Shown piece by piece: positions 291 through 42,823 of a DNA stretch of 64,000 nucleotides. The stretch is taken from assembly GCA_012521105.1 (NCBI GenBank), contig JAAYNA010000039.1, forward strand, positions 1 to 64,000. The letters run 5' to 3'. The DNA is from Clostridiaceae bacterium. Lineage in GTDB: Bacteria > Bacillota > Clostridia > DSM-8532. The notes beneath the pieces are model-generated. The model searched no databases, was not told where the DNA came from, and worked only from the letters and a program-made list of their open reading frames with translations. How positions within the stretch are numbered: the stretch's first letter is position 1; every line of letters starts with the position of its first letter. The position numbers and the translations under genes are program-made.

Positions 291-1349
291 TTAAACAGAG
301 GGGAGGGAGACAAAAGAACCATCACCGCGCTTCCCCTGGGCTATTAATCTGACAAGTTTATTAATCTGAACTGTGTTGCCATTCCACATTTCCCTGCCTT
401 TGGCAAGCAAATATTCGATATTTTCAGTGTTCCCGTCATCAATACCGGCCTTTTCACTGCCAAGATCAATATCGAAGCGGAAAAGTGTGACCTGGGGCAG
501 TTTCTTCAGCATGTGATTTGTACTTATCTTTTGGCCTTCACCGACTGCGGTAATCAGCGGTACCCCAAGCCATGGCGCAATCCAGTTAAAAAATCCCCAA
601 TTTCGCATTTTATCTGTTTTATACTCCTCTTTTTGGTTTCCTGTGCCCAGTGACAGAATTATATACTCGCTGCTGTCAGGGAAAATTTTTCTGGCTTCTA
701 TAAATGCGCTCATTGCAGGATTTATGCAAAAAATACCGCCATCTATAAGACAGTAACTGTCATCAAATTTATCAATACGGCTGGTATATACAGGCGGAAA
801 GTAGGTAGGAACTGCCGCTGTTGACAATGCCGCATCTACCATATAAAAATCAGGATCTGTGTCCCCGCCTGCATTAAGCGGCCTTTTTTTAATAAAAACC
901 GGCTGCATGGTTTTCATATCAAAAGTTGTAATTAATACATTTGTCAAGGCTTCTTTAACAGTATGATTTTTAAATATTTCTCTTAAAACCGTCCGAAACG
1001 GATCAGGGCTGTATTTACTTGTAAATATCTGTCTTATTATTTTTCGCACTCTGTTTCTGTTTCCAGGGAATACTCTGTTACCAAACATTTTGTACAGCTC
1101 CGGTAATTGCTCTGCATACACACCCCCGTTGATATCATATAAATCTCCATCACTTTTTTTGTAAAGAGGAACCGTTAAAGCAAGAGTTATCAAACCACCT
1201 GTGGATGTTCCTGCTATAATGTCAAAAATTTGATGGTAAGGTCTTTTTACACCATTTCTCTCAAGCACTTTTTTCAGCTCTGACAGGAAAAATGCCGGTA
1301 TTATACCACGAATTCCTCCACCGTCTACAGAAAGAACAAATCGTTTCAC
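291..1349 (-). CDS. Patatin-like phospholipase
   Basis: Predicted acyl hydrolase acting on membrane lipids. The sequence shows the patatin Ser-Asp dyad: the oxyanion loop DGGGIRG at residues 9-15, the nucleophile elbow GTSTGG with Ser49, and the DGG motif with Asp203. Length (352 aa) suits a single-domain bacterial patatin such as the CapV-type and plant-like enzymes. There is no signal peptide or membrane segment, so it is probably cytosolic. I chose the GTG at 1349, which has GGGGG five bases upstream, over the GTG at 1361. It is divergent from the glycosidase at 1518 and no cyclase, sensor or other defence gene lies beside it, so a phage-defence role is not supported; lipid turnover is equally likely. 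Family call is firm, role is open. Confidence 0.85.
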   Translation of the reverse strand: MKRFVLSVDGGGIRGIIPAFFLSELKKVLERNGVKRPYHQIFDIIAGTSTGGLITLALTVPLYKKSDGDLYDINGGVYAEQLPELYKMFGNRVFPGNRNRVRKIIRQIFTSKYSPDPFRTVLREIFKNHTVKEALTNVLITTFDMKTMQPVFIKKRPLNAGGDTDPDFYMVDAALSTAAVPTYFPPVYTSRIDKFDDSYCLIDGGIFCINPAMSAFIEARKIFPDSSEYIILSLGTGNQKEEYKTDKMRNWGFFNWIAPWLGVPLITAVGEGQKISTNHMLKKLPQVTLFRFDIDLGSEKAGIDDGNTENIEYLLAKGREMWNGNTVQINKLVRLIAQGKRGDGSFVSLPSV

Positions 1350-1452
1350 AATAACCCCCACATATATTTTTCTATTGGATCCTATGTTTCATTCTGTTAT
1401 AAATGCTTAATTACTAATAGAATTTTTTGCCGGTCCTCAAAGCTGTAAATCA

Positions 1453-1481
1453 TTCAAAGACCTAATCAAAAGTGGTATAAT
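1453..1481 (+). promoter_or_regulatory. Promoter of the glycosidase-like gene
   Basis: A -35-like TTCAAA at 1453-1458 and a perfect -10 TATAAT at 1476-1481 are separated by 17 bp, about 30 bp upstream of the ribosome site GGAAGGTGA of the gene at 1518. Confidence 0.55.
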
Positions 1482-1517
1482 AGTACTCGCAGGCATCATT
1501 ATCTGGAAGGTGATTTT

Positions 1518-4043
1518 ATGGAATTCACGAAACTGGACAAAGTACTTAATCTTAACCTGGACAAACACAGGCCTTTGGCCTTTTTTGGAATTAAAGCCCA
1601 TGAAAGTCATGGAAGCATCATAGATTGGGTGAAATGGTGCAAGAGGCAGGGCTTTCGTGGATTCAATATAATAATTGCATCAGATTGTATGGGGCGGGCT
1701 AACGAGTCGTGGATTAACATGGTACTTGATTCCTATGAAACAGCGTTAAAAACCGCAAAGGAAGAAGGGCTTGAGGTATGGATATTCGATGATTGGGGAT
1801 ACCCCAGTGGCACAGCAGGTGGGCTGGTCTGCACAGAAGATTCATACAGGGCTAAAAAACTTGTAATTTCCCATAACTGTATATTAAAAAAAGGGGAGCG
1901 TATTTCGCTTACAATGCCTGATAATTTAGTTTCTGCAGGCATACTGAAAAACAATACCTTTGAAAGACTTAACACAAGATCAAAAGAGCCTTTTGAATAT
2001 GTCTGCGAGGACGACTATGCTCTTATTGTTGTAGTTTCATGGGATTACGATGAACATGCTTCAAAATCCTCATGTAAATCATATCCCGGAGATCCTGCAA
2101 TGTCCTGTATGGATATGCTGAATCCAAAGGCAACCAAAAAGTTTCTAAGTGTTATGCATGACAGGCATTATCAAAGATTTTCAGAGTATTTCGGCGATGT
2201 TATTAAGGGTTTTTTCTATGATGAACCATATCTTAGGTTTGATTTTCCGTACAGTCAAAAGCTTTTTGAAGTATTCCAGAAAAAGAAGGGGTACGACCTG
2301 CTGGAAATACTGCCCTACCTTCTTGTTAATATTAATGATAACCAGCCGGCAGCCATAAAAGAATACATTGATGATTTTTTTGATGTATATACTGATATGG
2401 TGGCAGATAATTTTTACCGCGTTCTCAGCCAGTGGTGCAGCGAGCACGGGGTTGAACTGTCGGGGCATATGGACCTGGATCATCACCTTAATACATTAAA
2501 TACAATAAGCGGGCATTTTTTTAAGAACATGCAATACAACAGCAGACCTGCCATAGATGTAATCTGGGCACAGATTGAACCGGGGGTTTTTACCGATTTC
2601 CCCAGATACGCAGGTTCGGTTAAAAGGATTTTAGGCCGAAAGCATGCTGTATCCGAAACTTTCGCAGGAATGGGTCAGGGACTGCACGGCGATTTAATGA
2701 GGTATATTACCGATCATCAGGTTATTCGCGGGATTGATGACTTTCACCTTATGTACTCTAATAACAGCCCCGACGATCCTTCTGAAAGCCCGCAAATGCC
2801 TAATCATATGCTCCAGGAACCTTTCGGGAAGCTTATATATGAACGTATGGCAGCTGCTTCGGCTATTTCCTGCTATGGTATGTCAGCCGGAAACACTGCA
2901 GTTTACGTGCCCTGTTATGATTTATACAGGGCTCAGCTTAGTATAGGTCAGCTCACTGTTAACAATGCCGAGAAATTTATTTGGGAATGGGTTAATGACA
3001 TTGCCCGGGAATTAACATACATGCCCTGTGATTTTGATTATATTTGGGATGAAGCAATTCTTATGCTTGAATTAACAGAAGGTGGGCTTTTAACCGGGTC
3101 GGGTCATATAATAGACACAATTATTTTACCACCGAATTGTACAATTAAGAATGATATAGCCAAAAAACTGAAATTATTCTCAAAAGCAGGAGGAAGAATT
3201 ATATCTGTATTCCGGTATAATCCGCTTTTGGAACAGGAAGCAATACTGTGCAGTGAACTCACTTCGCTGAGAAAATATATCGATACTCCTGTTGCCATAG
3301 CCCCTAAAAGCAAGATATCCCTCTGCACCAGAATTGGTGAGGACAAAACTGTGTACATGCTGCTGAATGAATCTTTGGAAGATTCAGACGTTGAGATATG
3401 CATTAATAATAATGGTGCTTTATATGAGGCCAGTCTTAGGGATGGCAGCTTAACACTTGTTTCACAGGAAGGGCCTTTCAAATTCTCAACTCAGTTTGAC
3501 GGCTGTGGTATGAAAGTATTTATTACAGATACGAAAGGTACCATTTCCTCGGCTAATAATATTTTTTACACTGATTCTGTACACCGAAGGGAAAACTGTA
3601 TAGAGCCATTTGACTGGCGGGTTGTACTGCCTGATAAAAAAGAAGTAAAGCTTGACGGTAAAAACTGGCCCGACTGGACAAGTCTTGGGTGGCCTGAATA
3701 TTCAGGATTTATGAAATACACTTCATACTTTGACTATGATTGTGATCAGACAGAGGCAATTCTTTATATGCCCGAGCTTCACTACCATGCTGCAGTGTAC
3801 GTCGATGGAAAGGAAGCCGGAAAAGTTGCATATAAACCCTATGAACTGGTTTTATCAGGATTAAGCAAGGGAAGGCATAAACTTGAGATTGAGGTTTATA
3901 ACACCGGTGCAAACCAGGTTGTGGGGACCATAGAAGCAGAAAAGAAAAAATATTCAAAACGTTTTGCCCATATGGCAGCCCACGACAGAAAATGGCTTAA
4001 ATCAGGGTTGCTTGGGCGGGTTACAATCCATCCGGCAGATTAG
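1518..4043 (+). CDS. Glycoside hydrolase-like protein (GH106-like)
   Basis: 841-residue protein that resembles large alpha-L-rhamnosidase-like (GH106-type) glycosidases. The N-terminal half carries the barrel-like region with WIFDDWGYPSG near residue 95 and the acidic motif FFYDEP with Asp235/Glu236, as in related proteins. The C-terminal part (about 680-840) looks like a galactose-binding or jelly-roll sugar-binding domain (RHKLEIEVYN). There is no signal peptide, so the substrate is probably an oligosaccharide taken up by the cell. It has a good ribosome site (GGAAGGTGA, five bases before ATG) and its own promoter, and stands alone, not beside a transporter. The exact glycan is not known; a family-2-like or uncharacterised glycosidase is the alternative. 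Confidence 0.65.
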   Translation: MEFTKLDKVLNLNLDKHRPLAFFGIKAHESHGSIIDWVKWCKRQGFRGFNIIIASDCMGRANESWINMVLDSYETALKTAKEEGLEVWIFDDWGYPSGTAGGLVCTEDSYRAKKLVISHNCILKKGERISLTMPDNLVSAGILKNNTFERLNTRSKEPFEYVCEDDYALIVVVSWDYDEHASKSSCKSYPGDPAMSCMDMLNPKATKKFLSVMHDRHYQRFSEYFGDVIKGFFYDEPYLRFDFPYSQKLFEVFQKKKGYDLLEILPYLLVNINDNQPAAIKEYIDDFFDVYTDMVADNFYRVLSQWCSEHGVELSGHMDLDHHLNTLNTISGHFFKNMQYNSRPAIDVIWAQIEPGVFTDFPRYAGSVKRILGRKHAVSETFAGMGQGLHGDLMRYITDHQVIRGIDDFHLMYSNNSPDDPSESPQMPNHMLQEPFGKLIYERMAAASAISCYGMSAGNTAVYVPCYDLYRAQLSIGQLTVNNAEKFIWEWVNDIARELTYMPCDFDYIWDEAILMLELTEGGLLTGSGHIIDTIILPPNCTIKNDIAKKLKLFSKAGGRIISVFRYNPLLEQEAILCSELTSLRKYIDTPVAIAPKSKISLCTRIGEDKTVYMLLNESLEDSDVEICINNNGALYEASLRDGSLTLVSQEGPFKFSTQFDGCGMKVFITDTKGTISSANNIFYTDSVHRRENCIEPFDWRVVLPDKKEVKLDGKNWPDWTSLGWPEYSGFMKYTSYFDYDCDQTEAILYMPELHYHAAVYVDGKEAGKVAYKPYELVLSGLSKGRHKLEIEVYNTGANQVVGTIEAEKKKYSKRFAHMAAHDRKWLKSGLLGRVTIHPAD

Positions 4044-41844: not shown

Positions 41845-41873
41845 TTGACATATGCATACATTTATGCTATTTT
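41845..41873 (+). promoter_or_regulatory. erm promoter
   Basis: -35 TTGACA (41845-41850) and -10-like TATTTT (41868-41873), spaced 17 bp. The transcript would begin near 41880, giving a leader of about 157 nt that holds the leader peptide and attenuator. Confidence 0.7.
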
Positions 41874-41916
41874 TTATTATTAATAGAATCATATATTTGG
41901 AGGCTTTTATACACCT

Positions 41917-41946
41917 ATGATCGGTTTTGCTCGTATTCGAAAATAA
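41917..41946 (+). CDS. erm leader peptide MIGFARIRK
   Basis: Nine codons, ATG to TAA, with GGAGG at 41899-41903 (13 bases upstream, slightly long). The peptide contains Arg-Ile-Arg. Arg/Lys-X-Arg/Lys motifs are known to stall ribosomes in the presence of macrolides or ketolides (as in ermD-type leaders with Arg-Leu-Arg). The stop codon lies just before the terminator hairpin. Confidence 0.6.
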   Translation: MIGFARIRK

Positions 41947-41947
41947 T

Positions 41948-42006
41948 AGTGCACTGGAAAATAAGATAGCTTAATGTAGCCATCTTTATTTTGGTGCACT
42001 TTTTTT
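41948..42006 (+). terminator. Attenuator hairpin upstream of erm
   Basis: AGTGCACTGGAAAATAAGATAGC (left arm) is nearly the complement of 41978-42000, leaving a short loop, followed by T7 (42000-42006). The arrangement is a textbook intrinsic terminator placed between a leader peptide and a resistance gene. Confidence 0.8.
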
Positions 42007-42037
42007 GATTACGAAAAATCGAAAGAGGTGTATTTTT

Positions 42038-42823
42038 ATGCCTAAAATCAGGAATAAGAGGAAAAAAGCTCCTGTTTGGGTTTCTCAAAACTTTTTAACC
42101 AGTTATAAAACTATAAACAGGATAATACGCAAAACAACGTTAAGCAATTATGACCATGTTATTGAAATCGGCCCAGGAAAGGGGCATATTACCCGTAATC
42201 TCGTGAAATGCTGCAAATATGTTTCTGCAATTGAGATTGATGGGCGTCTGTATAATAAGCTGAAAGATAAATTTAAGCATACTGATAACGTTAAATTATA
42301 TCGTTATGATTTTTTAAAGTGGAAGCTCCCTAAATCCGGAGATTACAAGGTTTTTTCAAATATACCCTTTTGTATTACTACGAGTATTGTAAAAAAACTT
42401 ACCGAGTGTAAAAACGCGCCTGTAGAGACATGGCTTATAATGGAAAAAGGTGCTGCCAAACGCTTTATGGGGAAACCTTCCGAATCGTTACGTTCACTAC
42501 TTCTCAAACCCAAGTTTGATGTGAATATAATTTACTATTTCAATCAACATGATTTCCATCCTAAACCCGGTGTAGATGTTGTATTGTTTCATATTAAGAA
42601 AAAACCGCAGCCAGATATACCTTTTAATCAATGGAAAGCTTATGAACATTTTATCACTGCAGCGTTTAAGCACGGCCTTCGCAGCTTATTTACCCAAAAT
42701 CAATTAATTAGAGCCTTTCACATTGCCGGTATAGAAAATGACGCAACACCTTCAGAAATTCTATATATACAATGGCTCTGCCTTTTTCGATGTTACCGGA
42801 TATATGTGTTAAACAGAAAATAA
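42038..42823 (+). CDS. erm: Erm-family 23S rRNA adenine-N6 methyltransferase
   Basis: Methylates A2058 of 23S rRNA, giving macrolide-lincosamide-streptogramin B resistance. The 261-aa protein has the Erm/KsgA pattern: SQNFLTSYKTINRIIRKTTL, EIGPGKGHITRNLV (SAM motif I), AIEIDGRLYNKL, and the catalytic SNIPF in place of NIPY. The C-terminal helical domain (HFITAAFKHGLRSLFTQNQL) is typical of Erm, not KsgA. ATG 42038 has AGAGGTG seven bases upstream. The short basic tail and NIPF form suggest a chromosomal, distant Erm type; the exact erm class is not assigned. Transcription and translation appear controlled by the upstream leader. Confidence 0.88.
   Translation: MPKIRNKRKKAPVWVSQNFLTSYKTINRIIRKTTLSNYDHVIEIGPGKGHITRNLVKCCKYVSAIEIDGRLYNKLKDKFKHTDNVKLYRYDFLKWKLPKSGDYKVFSNIPFCITTSIVKKLTECKNAPVETWLIMEKGAAKRFMGKPSESLRSLLLKPKFDVNIIYYFNQHDFHPKPGVDVVLFHIKKKPQPDIPFNQWKAYEHFITAAFKHGLRSLFTQNQLIRAFHIAGIENDATPSEILYIQWLCLFRCYRIYVLNRK

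Follow-up and report, generated by a model that had tools for sequence, protein, structure and literature searches.

The usual account of inducible erm genes is one of translation attenuation, erm(K) and erm(D) being the exceptions that act at transcription. The attenuators of ErmC and ErmB have no terminator and make use of longer peptides and other stall motifs, and those of erm(K), erm(D) and erm(J) have longer leaders in which control is exerted through alternative hairpins; in these latter three we know of no ribosome-site lock formed by the sequence preceding the uORF start. PMC4335068 cites the erm(K)/erm(D)/erm(J) leaders of Bacillus (MTHSMRLRFPTLNQ) and describes erm(K) and erm(D) as transcription attenuators, in agreement with what the original prediction for the present locus had said of ermK-type leaders. 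A combination of both levels of control has been demonstrated for tlrB (yxjB) of B. subtilis in experiments with fusions, toeprinting and termination in vitro (PMC6851288). In that leader, the toeprint at U74 overlaps the terminator base, an AYA mutant is uninducible and almost no termination remains with a stem two bases shorter; no antiterminator is called for in the published model (PMC6851288). The same work found that only a fraction of RXR motifs stall ribosomes (PMC6851288). Dual control is also exerted at B. subtilis vmlR, through antiterminator and anti-antiterminator structures (PMC9226507). For mefA and msrD, a macrolide-stalled short uORF prevents an intrinsic terminator, and the MefAL peptide MTASMRLR is of the RXR kind (PMC10314930, PMC4335068).

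The window analyzed here, a 64,000-nucleotide stretch of DNA from a Clostridiaceae bacterium, carries an erm gene behind a short leader, the features of which are collected in Table 1. The gene had been called erm in the original prediction, and its product indeed passes the equivalog cut-off of NCBIfam NF000499 (241.7 bits against 212); it falls short of the cut-offs of all the named Erm classes listed and has 1yub and 1qam (ErmC') as PDB relatives. The promoter, the MIGFARIRK uORF, the T7 hairpin and the 8-base complement between ATACACCT and AGGTGTAT on which that prediction was built were likewise all found in place. In our reading, the leader senses macrolides and controls erm as a dual attenuator like that of B. 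subtilis tlrB, and we assign this reading a probability of roughly 0.8.

Table 1. Features of the erm leader and gene in the window (positions are those of the 64,000-nucleotide stretch).
Feature	Position	Strand	Basis or remark
Sigma-A-type promoter TTGACA-17-TATTTT, TG before -10	41845..41873	+	promoter scan; boxes at 41845-41850 and 41868-41873, 17 nt spacer, 10/12 matches
Shine-Dalgarno of leader uORF (GGAGG), 13 nt from ATG	41899..41903	+	
AGGC pairing with GCCT 42040-42043 at erm start	41901..41904	+	MFE fold
Anti-SD ATACACCT, exact complement of erm ribosome site	41909..41916	+	
Leader uORF, 9 codons, MIGFARIRK	41917 (ATG)..41946 (TAA)	+	
Codon helix, 5' arm (uORF codons)	41921..41943	+	20 bp in MFE fold
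Arg-Ile-Arg codons of uORF	41932..41940	+	predicted stall: Ile7 in P site (41935), Arg8 in A site
Intrinsic terminator: hairpin 41948-42000, T7 42000-42006	41948..42006	+	stem covariation in relatives
Codon helix, 3' arm, between terminator and erm ribosome site	42002..42022	+	
erm ribosome site AGGTGTAT	42026..42033	+	sequestered by 41909-41916 (fold)
erm, 23S rRNA adenine N6-methyltransferase, 261 aa	42038..42823	+	NCBIfam NF000499

In the MFE fold, the leader (~158 nt) is a single nested hairpin in which the uORF SD and the erm ribosome site close each other and the uORF codons pair with the stretch that follows the terminator, a helix absent from the original prediction. The segment 41880-42060 folds at -56.2 kcal/mol, compared with -31.2 +/- 4.1 kcal/mol in 200 dinucleotide shuffles (z = -6.1, 0/200), and an exact 8-bp complement between the two 12-nt intervals concerned arose in 3 of 5000 dinucleotide shuffles. 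A search of Rfam 15 with the leader returned no family at gathering score, just sub-threshold chance matches, and the hairpin with its T7 was absent from the list of a simple terminator scan. Promoter-like sites were overall no commoner in the promoter scan than in shuffled sequence, so that the weight given to the window promoter comes only from its position and its conservation. A TTATTT pause-like motif lies at 41986-41991; the position of the NusG pause motif (TTNTTT), sought across leaders, was not conserved.

Erm relatives were gathered from genome contigs and whole genomes, and 20 non-identical compact leaders were collected. The check on conservation proposed with the original prediction came out in its favor: the R-(I/L)-R motif is kept in the leader peptide of 20/20, and the helix between anti-SD and ribosome site is kept with compensatory changes. 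The codons beneath the motif vary (first Arg CGT, CGG, CGC or CGA; middle residue ATT, ATC, TTA or CTC), and the P-site codon lies 15-24 nt from the uORF start. All 20 leaders share a common fold consisting of an anti-SD helix of 5-12 bp, a codon helix of 12-23 bp and a terminator hairpin of 13-27 bp, and 17 of them have a comparable promoter (at least 9/12 matches) 28-53 nt upstream of the uORF start. The uORF SD stands 12-15 nt from the start codon in 14/20 leaders, a long spacing that arises because the anti-SD is wedged between the two. Such unusually long spacing, seen in the window (41899-41917) and in relatives, may keep uORF initiation weak.

A second intact leader is found in the window's own genome, on contig C165 (L083/L084, ~1007-1522, minus strand), with the peptide MGIIIRIRK. 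It precedes a broken erm, with residues 7-50 in one frame and 51-134 in another, the second frame continuing into an APH-type phosphotransferase domain (PF01636); the break reflects gene decay or else an assembly join. In L001 (~2697-2995), the compact-leader terminator is separated from the erm ribosome site by additional sequence containing a strong inverted repeat. A 100/100 branch of the Erm tree sets all the compact leaders apart from a long-leader group; 52 rows were assigned to neither group. In this sister group the uORF lies at about -245 (L008, L010, L043) or about -231 (L011, L014, L016) and encodes M..S(M/V)RIRK, MWTFIRMR or MGIIIRIR, some of these peptides resembling ErmDL; the group probably has a different attenuator layout.

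Covariation among the 20 leaders was assessed by three tests, which gave concordant results. Cognate 5' and 3' arms pair at -24.8 kcal/mol versus -18.0 kcal/mol when arms are swapped among leaders, and 0 of 20000 permutations were as good. At the third, synonymous position of the first Arg codon, the base pairs with its opposite in 16/20 leaders versus 9.25 in shuffles (p = 0.0025), in a test for which the helix was located without use of the tested base; this result allows selection on the RNA to be told apart from selection for the peptide. For the anti-SD and lower terminator helices, the covariation score, computed on a MAFFT alignment, was 0.416 versus 0.243 +/- 0.021 in shuffles (0/500), far above the slid versions, although relatedness of the sequences inflates such figures somewhat. 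Altogether, the best reading of these comparisons is that the RXR leader, the intrinsic terminator and the ribosome-site lock, conserved and covarying in 20 leaders, would make up a combined transcription and translation attenuator.

In the proposed mechanism, ribosomes would complete the nine-codon uORF and depart when no drug is present, and the hairpin at 41948-42000 would end transcription before erm. A read-through transcript would fold into one long hairpin with the erm site (via ATACACCT) and the uORF ribosome site both closed, which would place the decision during transcription and leave escaped transcripts silent. The cost of opening the uORF ribosome site is 13-24 kcal/mol in full leaders versus 4-14 kcal/mol in the nascent leader, so the uORF should be readable mainly before transcription of the leader is complete. 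If a macrolide occupies the tunnel, a stall with Ile7 in the P site and Arg8 in the A site is predicted by analogy with tlrB (PMC6851288), and the ribosome would then cover ~41920-41950, a stretch that takes in the start of the terminator stem as well as the 5' arm of the codon helix. The stem would be detached from the U-tract, RNA polymerase would read through, and the stall would at the same time remove ~20 bp of the lock and make erm translatable. Sequence and statistics bear out the parts of this scheme, their conservation and covariation and the overlap of the predicted footprint with the terminator; that ribosomes stall, that transcription terminates or reads through and that the erm ribosome site is freed are inferences.

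The transcription half of the switch is well supported, by the tlrB analogy and by the geometry of the predicted footprint, which reaches ~+15. The terminator stem starts 9-14 nt after the P-site base in 16/19 leaders, which places the terminator base within this footprint. In the window the stem starts at P+13, and the stalled ribosome is predicted to cost it the first three pairs and to part it from the U-tract. The exceptions are L002 and L006, with stems starting at +16, just outside the footprint, and L005, at +27. The U-tract adjoins the stem in most leaders; it is weak in L007, L009 and L015, and none is recognizable in L090.

The translation half, in which the erm ribosome site would be released, is weaker than the transcription half. 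The original prediction held that one stalling event would relieve both locks, and the footprint agrees with this at the terminator but not at the anti-SD. In erm-type leaders the last base of the anti-SD directly precedes the uORF ATG and lies 0-9 nt upstream of the stalled-footprint edge, and the anti-SD is not masked because the 5' edge of the ribosome falls at +0 to +9. Folding the leader in both states, as had been proposed, gave the nested lock without a ribosome, but masking the footprint barely opened the erm ribosome site (mean opening cost at equilibrium of 12.4 versus 13.1 kcal/mol unmasked), so little release is predicted. The same masked-footprint calculation, which ignores ribosome bulk, gives only a weak effect in tlrB-type leaders too, although their SD is paired to uORF bases +5 to +9 and thus borders on the footprint, so it weighs little for or against release. 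In the erm type, the site would have to be freed by the disappearance of the 20-bp codon helix together with ribosome bulk beside the anti-SD.

These results bear on whether only transcription attenuation is drug-controlled, with the ribosome-site helix acting as a constant brake that silences read-through transcripts and prevents uORF re-translation, and which the stalled ribosome would by itself leave closed. The anti-SD of the erm type lying outside the stalled footprint, the little release in folding and the higher opening cost of the uORF ribosome site in the full leader are all consistent with such a brake. However, a permanently closed brake would bar translation of the induced transcript as well, so some release is needed, and the low release comes from a folding model that takes no account of the bulk of the ribosome and gives little for the tlrB type too; we consider the constant brake unlikely. 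The weak or missing U-tracts of L007, L009, L015 and L090 would instead suit classical translational attenuation as in ErmC/ErmB, the mode of most characterized inducible erm genes (PMC4335068), with the terminator-like hairpin a non-working terminator. This is made very improbable by the long window stem that runs straight into T7, by the U-tracts adjoining the stem in most leaders, and by the folds, in which no ErmC-like alternative anti-attenuator hairpin pair is evident.

The signal could also be something other than a macrolide, such as another tunnel-binding drug or arginine-tRNA shortage, given that RXR leaders differ in drug specificity and that tlrB answers tylosin, not erythromycin (PMC6851288). 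The controlled gene argues otherwise, being erm (macrolides, lincosamides, streptogramin B) or tlrB (tylosin), as does the retention of R-X-R, a known macrolide arrest motif, through synonymous codon change, and a different signal appears quite improbable. A last possibility is chance, with an uninvolved small ORF and an arbitrary hairpin happening to lie together in AT-rich intergenic DNA. Such DNA often contains short ORFs, and promoter-like sites are equally common in shuffled sequence, but 20 leaders are conserved and covarying and covariance-model matches adjoin rRNA methyltransferase genes, and we give chance next to no credence. The tlrB-type dual attenuator is the reading that we retain for the window leader.

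Erm was found in 3/32 genomes of the window's family (E <= 1e-30) and in 7/391 genomes of its class (E <= 1e-50), a sporadic occurrence that suggests horizontal spread or frequent loss. A plasmid search with the leader DNA gave no match, every plasmid-borne Erm relative was <60% identical to the window Erm, and no Erm relative was found on viral contigs. A degenerate DNA pattern run over 391 genomes found two erm leaders only and was too tight, missing the window itself.

The 20 erm leaders alone were used to build a covariance model (R1), which, run on 398 genomes of the phylum, gave 12 matches in 10 genomes, all of them directly upstream of a 23S rRNA methyltransferase gene bar one (L113). 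Seven are window-type erm leaders (six leaders, two halves taken as one), two precede a different Erm (L106 and L107, the Erm of L106 scoring 211.6 bits, just at the cut-off of 212), and three precede RlmA(II)/tlrB homologues (L108, L110 and L111; Pfam PF21302), with E-values of 8e-7, 2e-4 and 8e-4 per genome. The two halves, L113 and L109, lie ~1.4 kb apart in genome G535 and seem to be one erm leader split by an insertion sequence. This putative insertion carries a transposase-like ORF and sits between the terminator arms, cutting off the promoter and uORF from the ribosome site and erm.

The leader peptide MGIRFIRIR is common to L106 (erm) and L111 (tlrB), and within this second subtype the identity between erm and tlrB leaders is 60-68% over ~150 nt, nearly as high as the 66-75% between tlrB leaders; the Erm and RlmA proteins have no meaningful similarity. 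A second covariance model (R2), built from the five second-subtype leaders (L106, L107, L108, L110 and L111), recovered the window leader at 41898-42040 (E = 9e-6). Additionally, it found further tlrB leaders, two of them with the peptide MIIQFIRLR, one residue from the MIIQFIRYR of B. subtilis tlrB. No clear tlrB-like leader was seen at RlmA genes in the window's own and neighboring families. Judged by sequence, the leader looks like a reusable regulatory part, present before erm and before tlrB, and the likeness of the two in sequence and structure points to a relationship, convergence under shared constraints being less probable. We put at about even odds the proposal of a portable device (RXR uORF, nested terminator and mutual ribosome-site lock) exchanged between the unrelated 23S rRNA methyltransferase families erm and tlrB, with the lock of the erm branch shifted ~10 bases upstream, outside the stalled footprint, and its release needing a mechanism other than direct masking.

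An Erm clade of Clostridia thus appears to use transcription and translation control together within ~160 nt, and tlrB is served likewise. Being absent from Rfam, the leader can be added there and used to predict drug-inducible silent erm/tlrB genes, and more than 20 natural variants are available for asking how far a stalled ribosome influences RNA folding.

Set beside the known systems, the window leader resembles vmlR in its predicted combination of transcription and translation attenuation under a uORF, and differs from it in that vmlR is an ABC-F gene controlled by an antiterminator route. With ErmC/ErmB it has in common a sequestered SD and control of erm by a macrolide-stalled uORF (predicted for the window); unlike the ErmC type, it has a terminator-like hairpin and U-tract, conserved in most relatives. 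An RXR leader peptide and terminator-based attenuation of erm (the latter predicted for the window) are shared with erm(K)/erm(D)/erm(J), and the long leaders of the sister group (~231-245 nt) look closer to that type. The mefA and msrD systems serve efflux and ABC-F genes, and no ribosome-site lock is apparent in their published model. A literature search, with subscription journals mostly outside its coverage, found no erm gene with a tlrB-like dual leader.

The tlrB leader shares with that of the window a 9-aa RXR peptide, a hairpin that sequesters the SD, takes in the uORF codons and holds down the uORF as well, a terminator base under the stalled ribosome (these last two effects being predicted for the window) and the lack of an antiterminator. 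The two differ in the gene, Erm (A2058) in the window and RlmA(II)/TlrB (G748) at tlrB, although leaders of the tlrB subtype precede erm too (L106, L107), and in the register of the lock, in which the SD pairs just before the uORF start in the window type and with uORF bases +5 to +9 in the tlrB type. The elements of the dual switch in the original prediction are conserved and covarying, but the arrangement itself had already been shown experimentally for B. subtilis tlrB (PMC6851288). The window leader has the structural features of a tlrB-type attenuator and would control erm instead; it is not a wholly new mechanism but a tlrB-type attenuator placed before erm, with the lock in another register.
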